In this document: positions 5,388 to 40,521 of the stretch, one piece after another
How positions within the stretch are numbered: position 1 is the stretch's first letter
Layout of the letters: every line of letters begins with the position of its first letter
Source of the DNA: a virus
Reading direction: 5' to 3' (one strand)
DNA: 40,521 nucleotides
Virus record (IMG/VR): IMGVR_UViG_3300027852_000085
Location: 1-40,521 of that record
The notes under the pieces: generated by a model
Databases searched by the model: none
What the model was told of the DNA's origin: nothing
What the model saw: the letters and a program-made list of their open reading frames with translations, nothing else
Program-made: the position numbers and the translations under genes

Positions 5388-5449
5388 ATATATAGTAAGA
5401 GGTTATATTTTAATCGCGCCCTTGGGGGGTGCCAATGGAAAGGGTCATC

Positions 5450-6073
5450 ATGGAAAACTTAAAGAAAACATTATTATTCGTAGCGTTGTTGACAGTTATA
5501 TTCGGACAAGCAAAGTCTGCTCCTTGCGAGAAGGGTTCAGGCGGTTCATGGGCATCAAACATTGTTAATGCCATTGGATTTGGAGCAAAGGTCGTTGAAG
5601 CAAAAGAACCTGAATCATGGTATTCAAGTATTGCTTCAACAGGAGCAAGCATGCTTCCTTCACTTGCAGGTGTTGGAGCAATAGCCGCATCATCTTTACT
5701 TCCTTTTGGAGTAGGACCTGTTGCTGCCGTAGTTGCACCACATTTGATTGCTGCCGGAACAAGGTATGTAACAAAAAAGATCTCAGGTGTTGATCTAGCT
5801 AAAGTTCAATACGAAAATGAGCTTAAAGATGAAGTAGATGCATTAACCAAAAAAATGAAACGACGAGAAAAAAAGCATAAAAAGCTCATGAAGAGAATGG
5901 AACGTCAACGTCAACGTAGAAGAAAAAAGAGAAATCGACGCAGCTATGACGATGACTATGAGTACGACGATGATTATGAACAAACTAATGACTATATAAC
6001 AGAAGCATATGCTGATGATCGTGAACAAACTAACGACAACACAACAGAAGCATATACTAAGGAAAATAAGTAA
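5450..6073 (+). CDS. Exported helical-hairpin protein with charged tail (family member 2)
   Basis: 207 residues. Signal peptide MENLKKTLLFVALLTVIFG then QAKSA; cleavage likely after Ala24. Residues about 60-105 are a hydrophobic Gly/Ala-rich double segment (LAGVGAIAASSLLPFGVGPV then AAVVAPHLIAAGTRYV). A Lys/Arg-rich coiled-coil-like helix follows (about 125-165), then an acidic Tyr/Asp tail with two copies of EQTND..TEAY. The N-terminus parallels the next gene (METLKKTIL). Start 5450 is chosen for that match and AGGG spacing; ATG 5435, behind a GGGGGG run, is an alternative. Looks membrane-inserting and exported; function unknown. Confidence 0.7.
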   Translation: MENLKKTLLFVALLTVIFGQAKSAPCEKGSGGSWASNIVNAIGFGAKVVEAKEPESWYSSIASTGASMLPSLAGVGAIAASSLLPFGVGPVAAVVAPHLIAAGTRYVTKKISGVDLAKVQYENELKDEVDALTKKMKRREKKHKKLMKRMERQRQRRRKKRNRRSYDDDYEYDDDYEQTNDYITEAYADDREQTNDNTTEAYTKENK

Positions 6074-6105: not shown

Positions 6106-6624
6106 ATGGAAACACTTAAAAAAACTATATTGTTGACTTTGATGCTTGGAATAAGTACAGCAGGATTCGCTCAAAAATACAGTGCAACGTCAGACTATGA
6201 AAATGGAGAGTTCAAAACAAGGATTGCAGTAACATCCGATAGTTACATTAAAACTGGCTTAACGGTCGCAGCAAACAGAGCCTTGAATACAATTCTTTCA
6301 AGTAAGTTATTTACACTTGGAGCTACAACTATAGGCGCACTTGGACTATATAGCGCTTATACATTTGCTCTTGCTAATCCAGGAATTGCTATTCCAGCCG
6401 GAATATGCCTTTCAGGGGTAGCTGCTGTAAAAACATTCAGATGGTTATTTGGTAAGAAAACAACTCCTAGACCAGCTACAAGGCGTATGGAAATGCGCAG
6501 AGTGGACGACGACGATGCAGGAGAACCACCGCTAGAAATAGAAGTCCAAAATACTCAAGTAGCACCAGACGGTGGCATTCGCGGTAGACATAGGGTTAGA
6601 GCTGATAGACGCATACAACTTTAA
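6106..6624 (+). CDS. Exported helical-hairpin protein (family member 3)
   Basis: 172 residues. Signal peptide METLKKTILLTLMLGISTAG then FAQ, cleavage after Ala22. Residues about 60-120 contain two hydrophobic helices (LFTLGATTIGALGLYSAYTF, then NPGIAIPAGICLSGVAAVK) ending in LFGKK. The IGAL, NP and LFG landmarks match the C-terminus of the 4363-4740 product, so the genes are paralogues. The tail is charged and contains RGRHRVRADRR. The RBS is an unusual GGGGGG six bases before ATG. The gene ends just before a strong terminator. Role unknown. Confidence 0.7.
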   Translation: METLKKTILLTLMLGISTAGFAQKYSATSDYENGEFKTRIAVTSDSYIKTGLTVAANRALNTILSSKLFTLGATTIGALGLYSAYTFALANPGIAIPAGICLSGVAAVKTFRWLFGKKTTPRPATRRMEMRRVDDDDAGEPPLEIEVQNTQVAPDGGIRGRHRVRADRRIQL

Positions 6625-6774: not shown

Positions 6775-7032
6775 ATGAAATACATATTTTTGCTGGTTTT
6801 AACGCTATATTCTGGTAATATTCTGGCTAGAGATAGAAAAGAACCAAGAACTTACGTCTCTATTATTGAAATAAACAAGATGAGAAAGAAATTCCCCACA
6901 CTGAGTATCTATGAAGTTTACGATAAAATCGTACAGAGAAAAGTTCGCTCATTTTTCAAAGATGTAAAAAAACGAATAAAAGCTGTTCAGAAAATGCTTA
7001 AAATAACCAACAAGAAAGACAGGAAAAAATGA
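6775..7032 (+). CDS. Small exported basic protein
   Basis: 85 residues. Signal peptide MKYIFLLVLTLYSGNILA with cleavage after Ala18. The mature part is strongly basic and helical (RKVRSFFKDVKKRIKAVQKM, ending NKKDRKK), without cysteines. It follows the terminator at 6657-6698, so it needs its own promoter or read-through; only weak AT-rich -10-like sequences are visible upstream. Its stop overlaps the next start (ATGA at 7029), so the two are coupled. A cationic exported peptide could bind nucleic acid or membranes. Not recognised. Confidence 0.65.
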   Translation: MKYIFLLVLTLYSGNILARDRKEPRTYVSIIEINKMRKKFPTLSIYEVYDKIVQRKVRSFFKDVKKRIKAVQKMLKITNKKDRKK

Positions 7033-27070: not shown

Positions 27071-27099
27071 TTTACACACTCGCACCACTATGCTACAAT
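27071..27099 (+). promoter_or_regulatory. Early-operon promoter
   Basis: TTTACA (27071-27076), a 17-bp spacer, TACAAT (27094-27099): 5/6 matches at both hexamers. Transcription would start near 27106, 18 nt before the first gene of the early operon. Confidence 0.7.
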
Positions 27100-27123: not shown

Positions 27124-27333
27124 ATGAATAATAAATCTGTGTCGGTTAGGATATCTTCTGATACGTATGAAGAACTTAAGATACTATGCATGTTAAACGA
27201 TAAGAACATTAAAGAAATGCTTACTGAATGCGTAAAGCAGTACCAAGAATGTTGTGAAAACTCCATGGAAATGAAAAATCTAAAGCACCAAATCTACAGA
27301 CTAAAGTATGATTCGCACGAGAAGGACAAATAA
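27124..27333 (+). CDS. Ribbon-helix-helix regulator
   Basis: 69 residues. The N-terminal strand SVSVRISSDTYEELKILCML and the helix after it fit an Arc/CopG-type RHH DNA-binding domain; the rest is a helical, Cys-containing tail. First gene after the early promoter, so it probably autoregulates this operon or other early promoters. Its stop overlaps the next start (TAATG). Confidence 0.65.
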   Translation: MNNKSVSVRISSDTYEELKILCMLNDKNIKEMLTECVKQYQECCENSMEMKNLKHQIYRLKYDSHEKDK

Positions 27334-27881
27334 TGGAAGAAGAAAAGACACCTTGTTTCACTGAAGAACGTCTAAAGGAAATAACGATCCTCCAAAAATA
27401 CGCTAGAGTGATCGCTAAAAAAGAGTTCTTCTACAACTTAATGTCTCCTCAAGTCAATGATCTTGCTAAATCTATGACCGAATTCAAGAAAACCTTTAAA
27501 GATATGAAAACAGATAAGGCCGCTGGTGGCCGGTACAAATACCAAAGCTTGCCGGCCCTTCTTAATGCTATATCGCCAGCGTTGGCTAAGCAGAGCCTGT
27601 CGTGTATGCAGCCTGTACACACCATAGCCGACAAAACTTATGTAATAACACTGATACTGCATTCCAGCGGCCAGTATGTTCGATCAGTTACAGCCATCCC
27701 AGAAAAATACACCATGGCCGGTAAAGTAGTGAACACTAACGAGAACCTACAAGCCATGGGAGGCGCTCTAACTTACACCAAGAGACACGCTCTTAAGTCA
27801 ATGCTAGGAATAGACGCAGATGAAGATACCGATGGTAACAGCCCTTATACAGCAAGGAACAATGGATATGGACAACACTAA
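27333..27881 (+). CDS. ERF-family single-strand annealing protein (first)
   Basis: 182 residues. ERF signature: GRYKYQSLPALLNAISPALA, KQSLSCMQPVH, LHSSGQYVRSVTAIPE, then LQAMGGALTYTKRHALKSML followed by GIDADEDTDGN. ERF proteins anneal single strands and drive phage recombination, often circularising or repairing genomes. The 3' end of this gene (from about 27791) recurs at 28772 and 29252. A second ERF lies at 30615. Confidence 0.85.
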   Translation: MEEEKTPCFTEERLKEITILQKYARVIAKKEFFYNLMSPQVNDLAKSMTEFKKTFKDMKTDKAAGGRYKYQSLPALLNAISPALAKQSLSCMQPVHTIADKTYVITLILHSSGQYVRSVTAIPEKYTMAGKVVNTNENLQAMGGALTYTKRHALKSMLGIDADEDTDGNSPYTARNNGYGQH

Positions 27882-27885
27882 AAAC
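27791..27885 (+). repeat. ERF 3'-end repeat, copy 1
   Basis: Functional 3' end of the first ERF gene plus the start region of the next gene. Contains AAGTCAATGCTAGGAATAGA and later AAGGAACAATGGATATGGAC, where AAGGA is an RBS and ATG 27862 starts the downstream gene. Partial copies are at 28772-28852 and 29252-29320. Confidence 0.85.
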
Positions 27886-28803
27886 AAGTCAATAATGGAA
27901 GTTCTGTTAGTAGAGAAAGTGTTTAGTGAAATAAACAAAGAATATGCAAGCTGGAAAAAAAACAAGAAAAACACTGAGAAGCCAAAAATTGTAACTGCTT
28001 ACGTTAAAACAATGGGTGACACGATAAGTAAAACAATAAGTGAAATAAACGAACTCACGTCAAAGAAAGCATCCGAAGAATTAGCAAAAGAAGTGCGTGA
28101 CAAGATGATATTATGTAAATTTTCTTGCGAACAAGTTCTTAAATTCAGCTATATAGCAGAAACATGCGACGGCATAATGGGACTCGACGAAATAAGGACC
28201 ACAAGAGATCAGCTGGACGAAGTACTTAAAGATGAAGATACCGAATTCTACACAGACCCTGCAAAATTCATGAGTAATAACCAAGAAACAATCTTAAAGT
28301 TGCAACTTGAAAAGGACTTCAAGGAAAGGATGTCTGAATATGATTCAAAAGAAGAATTTTATGAGGACAACCTTGAAGAAATGAGAGGCTTTTTAAATAG
28401 CATCCTAAAAGTAAGAAATGACCATGACCAGTGGGTGAAGGTTGGGAAAAAAGGAAAGCTACCGGCAAATGTATCAAGGTTTCTACTTGAAGGAATAAAA
28501 CAGATAAGAAAAATCTTTAGCGACGGGGACCACTTTATAAATCTTCTAGAAATGAAAGATGCAGCCATGCGCTTAGATGAAATGTTTAGATTCAAAGAAG
28601 GACTGACGTATATGATGACATCAAAGGAAGCTCAACACAGTCTATCAATGATGGAACAGGCTTTGTCTGAGTGGAAAAAAATAATAAAAAAAGAAACTGG
28701 AGAAGAAGTTACAAATATAGTTGATAATGCAAAAAGAAGAATTGAAAAACTAGAAAAAAATAAGAAGAAACCTCAAGTCAATGCTAGGAATAGATGCCGA
28801 TGA
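27862..28803 (+). CDS. Unknown helical protein inserted behind ERF
   Basis: 313 residues from ATG 27862 (MDMDNTKNKSIMEVLL), with AAGGA just upstream; a start at 27820 would lie deep inside ERF. Lys/Glu-rich, largely alpha-helical, no signal peptide, membrane segment or known motif. The last nine residues (QVNARNRCR) are an out-of-frame reading of ERF repeat copy 2, so the gene appears to have been joined onto an old ERF 3' end. An early-expressed protein of unknown role, possibly a DNA-metabolism or anti-host factor. Confidence 0.6.
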   Translation: MDMDNTKNKSIMEVLLVEKVFSEINKEYASWKKNKKNTEKPKIVTAYVKTMGDTISKTISEINELTSKKASEELAKEVRDKMILCKFSCEQVLKFSYIAETCDGIMGLDEIRTTRDQLDEVLKDEDTEFYTDPAKFMSNNQETILKLQLEKDFKERMSEYDSKEEFYEDNLEEMRGFLNSILKVRNDHDQWVKVGKKGKLPANVSRFLLEGIKQIRKIFSDGDHFINLLEMKDAAMRLDEMFRFKEGLTYMMTSKEAQHSLSMMEQALSEWKKIIKKETGEEVTNIVDNAKRRIEKLEKNKKKPQVNARNRCR

Positions 28804-28852
28804 AGACACCGATGCCCTTATACAACAAGGAACAATGGTTATGGAAACTAAA
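28772..28852 (+). repeat. ERF 3'-end repeat, copy 2 (remnant)
   Basis: In its own frame this still reads SMLGIDADEDTDALIQQG and then a short tail to TGA. Up to the gap all differences from copy 1 are at third codon positions, so it once belonged to a working, diverged ERF gene. A 7-bp gap relative to copy 1 changes the frame. The upstream gene now ends inside it. Confidence 0.8.
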
Positions 28853-29313
28853 TGATGGAAATTAACATAATTTTAACAACAGTTTTGTCTGTTGTTAACT
28901 TACTCATCTTTAAGATGGCAATAAAAACACTTAGCATAGCAGGCGAAAATGATCAAAGAATTTGGCGTAAAAGCATACTAGACAACATGAGAGAACTTAA
29001 GGAGATAAAGGAACTTCTGTTTGTGATAGCAGGCGATAAAATAGAAAGTTCTCAGTGGGGCGCCTGGAACTATAAAGAAATTCCCAAAGGAGATTGGGGT
29101 TCAATTTCTCCTGGAGACCCATACTGGAGATATCAGGATTGCCACTCTGATACTAAGTCAAAATCATACTATCAGATTAATATTGACATGCTTAAAGAAG
29201 AAATTAAAAGGGAAAAGGATGAAGAAGAGTATGTAAAGTCACTACGAAAGAAGATAGATACCAATGGTAACAGCTCTTATGCGGCAAGGAACAATGGATA
29301 TGGACAACACTGA
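28852..29313 (+). CDS. Unknown membrane-anchored protein with an ERF-derived tail
   Basis: 153 residues. N-terminal hydrophobic segment (INIILTTVLSVVNLLIF) then a helical charged region, a Trp/Gly/Pro-rich middle (SSQWGAWNYKEIPKGDWGSI), and a Lys/Glu helix. The last 17 or so residues (TNGNSSYAARNNGYGQH) are homologous and in frame with the ERF C-terminus. The gene therefore looks like an insertion fused to an ERF 3' end. Function unknown. Confidence 0.6.
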   Translation: MMEINIILTTVLSVVNLLIFKMAIKTLSIAGENDQRIWRKSILDNMRELKEIKELLFVIAGDKIESSQWGAWNYKEIPKGDWGSISPGDPYWRYQDCHSDTKSKSYYQINIDMLKEEIKREKDEEEYVKSLRKKIDTNGNSSYAARNNGYGQH

Positions 29314-29320
29314 AAACAAT
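29252..29320 (+). repeat. ERF 3'-end repeat, copy 3
   Basis: About 58 of 63 bases match copy 1 (by eye) from GATACC to AAAACAA. It supplies the last codons of the 28852 gene and the RBS and ATG (29294) of the zinc-finger gene, just as copy 1 does for its downstream gene. Confidence 0.85.
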
Positions 29321-29905
29321 GATCTATATGGTTTGCCTATAGAGCTTCTTATAAAGAATAAGATCGTTTCTTTGTCTAAAGAAGCAAGCGAGAAACATGG
29401 AAACGATCAGTATAGAGGTAAGTGCCCTTGGTGCGCTAAAATGGAACTTATCCCGTGCAATCACAGACAGATATCCTGCGAGAACAATAATTGTGGGTTT
29501 TTTGCTCGTAACATTGAAGAATTTGAAAAGCAACGAAATAAAAAGAGAGAAAATATATACCAGTGGGCCAAAGAAAATGGAATAGAAACCTGTCCATCTT
29601 GTGGAAACGGCCGCGTAGGCTTTACGATTAAGAGCGAATACTACTCTTGCTCCAACTACAAGTCCGATGAATATGATGCCCAGAGCTATTGCGATGTTAA
29701 AGGCAAAACGCTAGATGAGTTTAAGAGAGACGTAGCGCGAGGATTCATATTGGAAGAAATAACTGAGTCAGAAATGGAAGACATTATTGACTTATTCGAG
29801 CGTCAGTTAAAGGGAGAGGACAAAAAGAACGTCCTAAGTAGCCTTAATGCTGCTATGAAAATACTAAAGAAATATAGAAGGGCTAAATGCCACCAAAAAG
29901 ATTAG
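29294..29905 (+). CDS. Zinc-finger protein
   Basis: 203 residues from ATG 29294 (MDMDNTENNDLYGLPIELL), 20 nt inside the preceding gene. First finger: CPWC, then a Cys and His pair and CENNNCGF. Second: CPSCGNGRVGFTIKSEYYSC, then further cysteines ending SYC. These zinc ribbons resemble those on topoisomerases, primases and recombination proteins and suggest nucleic-acid binding. A helical C-terminus follows. Located among ERF and RHH genes, so a DNA replication or recombination accessory is likely. Confidence 0.65.
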   Translation: MDMDNTENNDLYGLPIELLIKNKIVSLSKEASEKHGNDQYRGKCPWCAKMELIPCNHRQISCENNNCGFFARNIEEFEKQRNKKRENIYQWAKENGIETCPSCGNGRVGFTIKSEYYSCSNYKSDEYDAQSYCDVKGKTLDEFKRDVARGFILEEITESEMEDIIDLFERQLKGEDKKNVLSSLNAAMKILKKYRRAKCHQKD

Positions 29906-30078
29906 TCCTTAAAGTCTCAGACGAGGCCGTCAAGACCATCAATTTCATGAAAGTAATCACCAAGAAGACAACATCAGAAATAATCGAAATGGCGCTAGAA
30001 TCTCTTTCTAAAAAAAAACTCACAAGAGAAGAATGGACAAATCTGAGAGAATGGTTCGATAAAAAGTACAAGGTATAA
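29887..30078 (+). CDS. Ribbon-helix-helix protein
   Basis: 63 residues. RLVLKVSDEAVKTINFMKVI then TSEIIEMALESLSKK has the strand-helix-helix layout of small Arc/CopG-like repressors. RBS GAAGGG upstream. Overlaps the previous gene by 19 nt. A second RHH regulator in this operon; it could bind the dyads near 4226 or 4277, or the half-sites near 5289. Confidence 0.6.
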   Translation: MPPKRLVLKVSDEAVKTINFMKVITKKTTSEIIEMALESLSKKKLTREEWTNLREWFDKKYKV

Positions 30079-30080
30079 AC

Positions 30081-30377
30081 ATGGACTCAGAAAACGACAT
30101 AGTCGCAAGGATTGCGAACAGAATTAGACAGAAACACCTCGACAACGCAGATGAAACATACAACATGAAAACTAATGCAATCATCAGAAGACTCATAGAT
30201 ATATTCGAAGAAGACAGCAAGGAATGGACAGATCTTATGGATGAATTTGGGCTCATCTCAAGCACACACCTTGCATCTACAATAAGATTAACGAGAGAGC
30301 TAGATATCAACCTGTTCGAACAGGCACTCGAAGTCGGTGACGAAGAGGCCGTAGCCTATGAAAATAGCTTAGAATAA
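30081..30377 (+). CDS. Small helical acidic protein, unknown
   Basis: 98 residues, all helical by composition, acidic, with NAIIRRLIDIFEEDSKEW in the middle. No cysteines or membrane segments. It follows the RHH gene by 3 bp, which might make it a partner of that regulator, in the manner of an antitoxin-like pair, but no toxin fold is visible. Not recognised. Confidence 0.55.
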   Translation: MDSENDIVARIANRIRQKHLDNADETYNMKTNAIIRRLIDIFEEDSKEWTDLMDEFGLISSTHLASTIRLTRELDINLFEQALEVGDEEAVAYENSLE

Positions 30378-30387
30378 AGGAATAAAT

Positions 30388-30615
30388 ATGATCTTTTACG
30401 TACTTTTCTTACTACTAACAATCACTCCAGTTAACGCCATGGAAAATAGAAAGCAATCAGTAGCAGACAAGGTACCACATCCAATAGACGATCTTCGATA
30501 TGATCCAACAAAGGTATTAGACGACATCTTCGCTGACCTAGACAAAGGATTTGATGAAGTACGCAGCATTATTTACCAACCAAATAAAGGCTATACAGAC
30601 GAGGATGACGAATAA
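30388..30615 (+). CDS. Small exported acidic protein
   Basis: 75 residues. Signal peptide MIFYVLFLLLTITPVNA with cleavage after Ala17; this is strikingly like the end of the HIT protein's signal (LTVVPVNA). The mature part is acidic with a short helix (DDIFADLDKGFDEVRSIIYQ). It sits between two DNA-metabolism genes, so an exported product here is odd. Its stop overlaps the ERF start (TAATG). Function unknown. Confidence 0.65.
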   Translation: MIFYVLFLLLTITPVNAMENRKQSVADKVPHPIDDLRYDPTKVLDDIFADLDKGFDEVRSIIYQPNKGYTDEDDE

Positions 30616-31382
30616 TGGAAGTACAAAAAGAAGAGAGCTTCAGCGACCAATTAGTACATTTTGAGGAGCTTGAAAAGTATCTAGAGAAAAGAATTACCAA
30701 TAGGTTAAAACAATGTCGTCCTGAGCTTTACGAGTCAGAAAAGACCGACCAGATATGCACCGCACTTTCTAAGGCTCAGGGCGAATTCCCTGAAATAAAT
30801 ACCAATAGGGCTAATAACTTCTTATTCAACCAATACTCAGACCTTGATATAATAATGCGCTCCATCAGGCCAGCACTGTCCCTTAATGGCCTATCAATAA
30901 CTCAACAAACTAAACTCGATAGTGAAAAGACAGTGCTGGTCACTAGATTAAGACACAAATCTTCTCAGTTCATCGAAACAAGATCCAGAATCATCCCCTC
31001 AAGAAACGATATTCAAACATATTCCTCTGCTGTCAAAGCCATGAAACGTCACGATATCATGGGCCTGCTTAATATAACCATAGTAGACGACATGGACGAC
31101 GACGATGGCGAGAGAGACATGGAGCATGTCAGGAAAGAAACTAACGAGGGAACTGGACTTAACGTTCGATACAGGGCAAAACAGGAGTCATTCGAGACGA
31201 TCTCGCAGGACCAAGAGAACGAACTTAGATATGTCATAGGTGATAACGCTGATATCGCTGAAAAGATACTCGAAACTCTCAAAATACAGACGTTTGCAGA
31301 CATGCCTAGATCAAAATATGAAGGCGTTAGACGACAAGCTCAAAATGTAGTAAACAGTAGAGACGGTAAAAAGAAACTTTAA
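30615..31382 (+). CDS. ERF-family single-strand annealing protein (second)
   Basis: 255 residues. Core homologous to ERF: LSKAQGEFPEINTNRANNFL, then NQYSDLDIIMRSIRPALSLN, GLSITQQTKLDSEKTVLVTR, LRHKSSQFIETRS and SSAVKAMKRHDIMGLLNITI with an acidic DDMDDDDGERD after it. The C-terminal 80 residues are helical and could hold a helix-hairpin-type DNA contact (SQDQENELRYVIGDNADIAE). A paralogue of the 27333 protein but longer and strongly diverged. Why one phage carries two is unclear. Confidence 0.75.
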   Translation: MEVQKEESFSDQLVHFEELEKYLEKRITNRLKQCRPELYESEKTDQICTALSKAQGEFPEINTNRANNFLFNQYSDLDIIMRSIRPALSLNGLSITQQTKLDSEKTVLVTRLRHKSSQFIETRSRIIPSRNDIQTYSSAVKAMKRHDIMGLLNITIVDDMDDDDGERDMEHVRKETNEGTGLNVRYRAKQESFETISQDQENELRYVIGDNADIAEKILETLKIQTFADMPRSKYEGVRRQAQNVVNSRDGKKKL

Positions 31383-40185: not shown

Positions 40186-40521
40186 ACTTCCACCTCTACA
40201 ATCGTAAACGTTGTTGATGAAACTCCACCGTATTGACGCGTAGTAGCTCCATTAATATATAATGTTTCAGTTACTGCTAATACACCGCATCTAATTTTAA
40301 ATGTAGTTGCTTCCGTAGTTCCGGCTATCATTGAATAAGTTAAAGTATTTGTCGATCTGGATGCCGCTGAAATCACAACTGATGCAATCAAAAAACCTGC
40401 CGCTAATGCATTTGCAGTTGCGTCTTGAAATAACGCAACTGATGGAATACACGTCCCTCCTCCCTCTACAGAAGCCGTGATACAGTTAAAAGTTAGAAAT
40501 AATCTATTTGTTGCTTTAGTT
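40182..40521 (-). CDS. Fibre-tip-like small tail protein, C-terminal part (starts at 305 on the other end)
   Basis: This is the C-terminal portion of the gene split by the window edges. It ends in YSMIAGTTEATTFKIRC and YGGVSSTTFTIVEVEV, the usual final strands of the fibre-tip beta-sandwich domain. Its TGA stop overlaps the ATG of the chaperone gene (ATGA, 40182-40185), so the two are probably translationally coupled. An ORF search confined to this edge would start at a false TTG (40391); the true start is at 305. Confidence 0.65.
   Translation of the reverse strand, partial: TKATNRLFLTFNCITASVEGGGTCIPSVALFQDATANALAAGFLIASVVISAASRSTNTLTYSMIAGTTEATTFKIRCGVLAVTETLYINGATTRQYGGVSSTTFTIVEVEV
40390..40521. 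repeat. Right copy of terminal redundancy
   Basis: Second copy of the end overlap, offset 40,389 from the left copy. The minus-strand reading frame of the small tail gene runs through it without interruption into positions 5-305, which supports joining the ends. Confidence 0.9.

Follow-up and report, generated by a model that had tools for sequence, protein, structure and literature searches.

Truncated copies of an ERF gene end lie between cargo genes in a viral early operon and are probably recombination scars

We have studied an early operon of an uncultured virus in which the 3′ end of a gene for an ERF-family single-strand annealing protein is present three times, with unrelated small genes lodged between the copies. 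It is likely that the second and third copies are scars of recombination, and that these cargo genes were stacked behind the ERF gene by recombination between co-infecting relatives. This reading is suggested by the different cargo found behind the same ERF gene in related phages, by more distant relatives that lack cargo at this place, and by similar scars in the contig L006 and, weakly, in L002.

Results

The sequence analyzed, termed the window, makes up the whole of a 40521-bp viral record. Direct repeats of 132 nt that are 99% identical lie at its ends (1–132 and 40390–40521), suggesting that the genome is complete. The nearest terminase in the genome collection is that of contig L071, from a Chlamydiia MAG from a fen (49–50% identical); other genomes of the same phylum gave weaker terminase matches, 16/151 in all.

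The features of this operon described below lie on the + strand. Upstream of the early operon there is one plausible promoter, with the predicted site TTTACA-17-TACAAT at 27071–27099 (10/12 consensus matches and an extended −10). By pattern scan, promoter-like sites are not enriched in the region (11, against 14.7 expected from shuffles), and terminator-like sites, assessed by pattern scan only, are also at chance level. Sites of both kinds bear on whether the cargo genes are morons, each flanked by a promoter and a terminator of its own. A gene for an Arc/ribbon-helix-helix (RHH)-like protein of 69 aa (27124–27333; phrog_3180, E = 0.005) has homologs in related contigs, where its position upstream of the ERF gene is conserved. 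ERF1 (27333–27881) is an intact gene for an ssDNA-annealing protein, matching the ERF domain profile of Pfam (PF04404, E = 1.2e-16, 61.5 bits against a cutoff of 25) and phrog_2324 (E = 8e-30). A second ERF-family paralog, ERF2 (30615–31382), has ingroup relatives at 59–76% identity and forms the conserved right border of a variable interval. Two ERF-family paralogs (~22% identical) are found per early operon in many of these phages (the window and L010–L021), and are adjacent in the more distant members. A gene of 60–66 aa directly 3′ of ERF2 resembles the ERF2 C-terminal domain in L013 (8682–8966) and L021 (8760–8951).

Comparison of the region with itself located three copies of the ERF end with ribosome binding site and ATG, at the places claimed in the initial annotation. 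Copy 1 (27792–27887) is the functional 3′ end of ERF1 together with the start of the next gene, with a Shine-Dalgarno sequence AAGGA at 27854–27858. Copy 2 (28772–28851; nhmmer E = 2.8e-18) is a truncated ERF 3′ end with a 7-nt deletion at 28814, and ends in NNGYGN* (the asterisk denoting the stop). Copy 3 (29256–29319) is in the ERF frame, and carries the stop of the second cargo gene and the Shine-Dalgarno sequence and start of the following gene. An SD-like AAGGA is present in all of the copies, with a gene start inside or just behind each. Copies 1 and 3 are identical at 59/64 positions (27824–27887 and 29256–29319; 92%, E = 2e-21), close to the 58 of 63 estimated earlier. Copies 1 and 2 agree at 39/43 positions before the deletion (27792–27834 and 28772–28814), after which a further near-identical stretch follows with a 32-nt core at 94%; the whole alignment has 81 columns at 84% identity (E = 2e-20). 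Eighty dinucleotide-shuffled early regions gave two self-matches with E < 0.01 and none with E < 1e-3, and the copies are thus more alike than chance. We also considered an assembly chimera, which we judge unlikely since the joins lie in non-homologous sequence, other samples have contigs with such scars, and the window has its 132-nt terminal repeats.

Two unrelated ORFs lie between the copies and each ends inside one, as previously claimed. The first codons of ORF327 (27862–28803) come from the ERF tail, read in a second frame, and the gene ends at 28803 within copy 2, which supplies its last nine residues (QVNARNRCR*) in a third, non-ERF frame. An AlphaFold model, of low confidence (pLDDT 53), suggests that the protein is probably all-helical; its two ERF-derived ends have the lowest values, below 35, as expected for passive appendages. 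Its sole relative among 21 related records is encoded at 6467–7042 of L006 (33%). The ERF-type stop of copy 2 is immediately followed by ORF153 (28852–29313), which has a hydrophobic N-terminal segment. It ends at 29313 within copy 3, which it reads in the ERF frame; its last 18 residues, DTNGNSSYAARNNGYGQH, are therefore those of the ERF C terminus (83%). It has no relative in 21 related records, and the gene following the L006 scar gave no match to it, so that a supposed homology between the two was dropped.

The third cargo gene (29294–29905) starts inside copy 3 and encodes Cys-rich, zinc-ribbon-like motifs; there was no clear family in Pfam or PHROGs, and one marginal match among the 21 related records. 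Its product shares the N terminus MDMDNT(K/E)N with ORF327 (53% over 36 aa, E = 2e-6), because both starts are read from the ERF tail. Three more small cargo genes (63, 98 and 75 aa; 29887–30615) extend up to ERF2, and the 63-aa product is weakly similar to the RHH-like gene upstream of ERF1. Protein scans of the viral contig collection gave no relatives of ORF327, ORF153 or the zinc-ribbon gene. The first three cargo products (P0002, P0003 and P0004) had no match to an integrase or transposase beyond chance in Pfam or PHROGs. We therefore rejected integrase-driven capture, in which an element restores the 3′ end of its target gene, as these three genes are without such a recombinase. The suggestion that the host ERF gene is restored by each incoming cargo is not supported either: ERF owes its completeness to copy 1, and the downstream copies 2 and 3 are truncated remnants.

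ERF1 has relatives in eight viral contigs (60–84% identical), whose terminases are 77–88% identical to that of the window. The gene following ERF1 is a different one in 8/8 of these, the contigs L004 and L007 showing only its start; the expectation that different genes would stand behind the same ERF tail in related phages was thus borne out. The relatives carry a single full ERF tail and lack the cargo genes of the window, and none is close enough to provide a clean empty site. In L015, L018 and L021, ERF2 directly follows ERF1 with no cargo, and from this adjacency the cargo-free order is most likely to be the ancestral one. In ingroup members with a complete interval, two to six turnover genes form an island between ERF1 and ERF2. 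No match to ERF1 was found in the genome contig collection, and a DNA search of cultured phages gave no match.

Several cargo proteins of the ERF1–ERF2 interval in L002, L003 and L006 have signal-peptide-like starts, e.g., MKKLFTFLVLLSSSAYTME and MKKILIACTAMFLACNAYCMED, and possibly are phage-encoded exported proteins. We take them to be reminiscent of Dependentiae proteins.

Scars similar to those in the window are found in two of the relatives. In L006 the scar DGNSPYTARN* (7050–7085; nhmmer E = 1.1e-5) lies between two cargo genes. The ERF tail of L006 itself, DGNSQCIQNGNQYGK*, ranks 8th of 10 as a match to this scar, indicating that the scar came from another ERF allele, or that the ERF gene was later replaced. 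The L002 scar RNNGYGT* (6983–7011), also between cargo genes, is weak (nhmmer E = 0.33; self-match of 25 nt, E = 0.006). The right edge of every scar is the natural junction of the ERF stop and the start of the next gene, and the left edges are ragged, with about 80, 64, 36 and 29 nt of ERF left.

Sister phages commonly have short direct repeats where genes meet in their early region. In L011 the start of ERF1 is repeated in front of cargo (4842/5421). Three MEEE gene starts are present in L010 and three leaders in L015; L016 has two duplicated junctions, the start of ERF2 among them, and L004 has one. Both copies lie at gene boundaries in 10/19 repeat pairs, compared with 1.1 expected by random placement, though sets of three copies contribute pairs that are not independent, and genes were called mechanically. 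In a small sample of unrelated ERF phages, 0/6 had a repeat touching ERF. The cultured Geobacillus phage NIIg9.7, an ERF phage, has a duplicated gene start standing before two different genes (L080 4950–4988/5460–5498; 39 nt, 90%). A 162-nt intergenic block, promoter- and terminator-like by eye, is tandemly doubled in the phage of L003 (L012 5271–5432/5426–5587).

Discussion

Phage mosaicism is usually visible only as finished joins, without trace of their formation. Here the joins have kept truncated gene ends, serially and in several sister phages, from which one can read in which direction, and perhaps in what order, genes were gained.

We suggest that an ancestor had ERF1 followed directly by ERF2, and that small genes were later stacked between the two. 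Each join would have placed a truncated ERF 3′ end, together with the gene following it in the donor, behind a gene that was already present, and the ragged left edge of the scar would mark the point of joining. The joining presumably took place between co-infecting relatives, either over short homology or illegitimately, without any, and recombinants would have been retained when all the genes needed had stayed whole. The retained piece of ERF closes the incoming reading frames and would supply a Shine-Dalgarno sequence and start codon, so that the cargo might be expressed immediately as part of the early operon. It is plausible, by analogy, that the ERF protein of the phage helped in the joining (see also PMC2327257): the Erf protein of phage D3 is as efficient as Red beta on DNA with 22% divergence, and the minimum for Red beta has been put near 30 bp (PMC3945230). 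The scars need not each stand for an independent event: the window and L006 both have ORF327 and an ERF scar in succession, and a single shared event with later erosion may account for both. Any one of the tails may be the original. A donor phage in which ERF precedes ORF153 or the zinc-ribbon gene was not found.

The extra tails might alternatively have arisen within one lineage, unequal exchange or template switching in a single phage doubling the ERF tail around incoming genes, with later drift, rather like a long target-site duplication. Among known tails, the one nearest to copies 2 and 3 is indeed that of the window itself, and the cargo at the ERF1 start of L011 is likewise flanked by ERF1-start copies. 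Against this stands the nature of copy 2. Its differences before the gap are all at third positions and synonymous in the ERF frame (4/4), although that frame is not read there now; the probability of this under unconstrained change is 0.002–0.005 in a codon-substitution test. Compared with nine relatives, copy 2 is alone in having GCC and shares its GAT and GAC with only a minority, which places most of the changes on the branch of copy 2 itself. The stop context of copy 2 (YGN*, with the next ATG after the stop) differs from that of copies 1 and 3 and is of the L002 type. Four sites are few, but with the different stop context they favor descent from a separate, working ERF allele over a fresh duplication, in agreement with the initial annotation. 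The L006 scar is also unlike the ERF tail of its own phage. We therefore regard duplication within the lineage as rather unlikely.

It was also proposed that the ERF 3′ end is a hot spot, a preferred site of exchange since the annealing protein acts on its own gene. There are several scars at the one gene (two in the window and those of L006 and L002), and Erf-type proteins act on diverged homologies (PMC3945230). Yet other junctions are doubled in the same way in L010, L015, L016 and L004, affecting the starts and ends of various genes, and none of the six unrelated ERF phages had a repeat touching ERF; the proposal is thus unsupported, and we think it very improbable. Nor are the copies likely to have been kept as elements controlling translation or RNA, like the Start Associated Sequences (SAS) of Cluster K mycobacteriophages. 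The AAGGA and gene start with each copy, the gene-start repeats of L010 and L015, and the SAS precedent (PMC3203893) would fit, but the identity spans 30–80 nt of ERF coding sequence, well beyond the start region, and the differences in copy 2 follow the ERF codons. Predicted RNA folding of the copies was no better than that of shuffles (z = 1.9, 1.2 and 0.0), and an RNA element was rejected on this ground; the regulatory reading has, in our estimate, very little chance of being correct. A bolder form of the recombination model is improbable, taken as a whole: the ERF1 3′ end would be an attachment site needing no recombinase, and the operon an array of cassettes of ERF tail plus gene that enter and leave by ERF-catalyzed annealing of the repeated tails. 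If true, it would provide this phage family with a renewable island of early genes without a site-specific recombinase.

The scars of stacked recombination that we propose have a close parallel in mycobacteriophage Island3, whose gp68 is an orphan with 18 C-terminal residues that repeat those of gp67; gp68 is absent from its sister Brujita, where the sequence occurs once (Pope et al., 2011, PMC3029335). In both cases an unknown gene stands behind a conserved one and closes with a repeat of that gene's 3′ end, as found here for ORF153. Even the lengths are similar, with 18 residues and 58 nt at 91% in Island3 by the same self-comparison, and 18 residues and 64 nt at 92% in the window. The cases differ in that the conserved gene of the window is ERF, that there are three copies and two cargo genes, and that scars recur in sister phages; and Island3 has a near-identical one-copy sister, where none was found for the window. 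Judged by sequence, the window contains the same kind of mosaic scar as Island3, here stacked and recurrent across a phage family. The single closely similar described case that we found is thereby extended to a family of uncultured phages, and it may be possible to find captured phage genes by searching for junction repeats.

Other junction elements are more distant. The conserved boundary sequences of lambdoid phages, as cited in PMC3029335 and PMC2327257, are short junctions common to different phages and thought to allow the exchange of modules by homologous recombination; the window differs in keeping old boundaries as extra truncated copies in one genome. The PeSLs of T4-type phages are mobile regulatory cassettes comprising a promoter and stem-loop (Arbiol 2010, as cited in PMC4503421). 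On that secondary account they too are repeated junction elements between variable genes, thought to mediate shuffling, whereas the copies in the window are ERF coding sequence with no excess of promoters (11 sites against 14.7) and no stable fold. The SAS of Cluster K is a 13-bp RBS-type motif in many copies by start codons (PMC3203893). It resembles the gene-start repeats of L010 and L015 in kind, being a start-codon repeat in the non-structural half of the genome, whereas the ERF-tail copies are 29–81 nt of gene-end coding sequence and not a short motif confined to gene starts. PeSLs and SAS are thus related in effect but fail on their defining features.

Some further observations were made outside the early operon. 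In the records G009, G010 and G011, corresponding to L018, L019 and L020, the terminase large subunit is one open frame of 1026–1472 aa in which the terminase match is split by in-frame insertions, three of them of about 1 kb in G009; from their sequence these are possibly inteins. In the window there is a 45-nt tandem duplication (5969–6058, 84%) close to the end of the ORF at 5429–6073.
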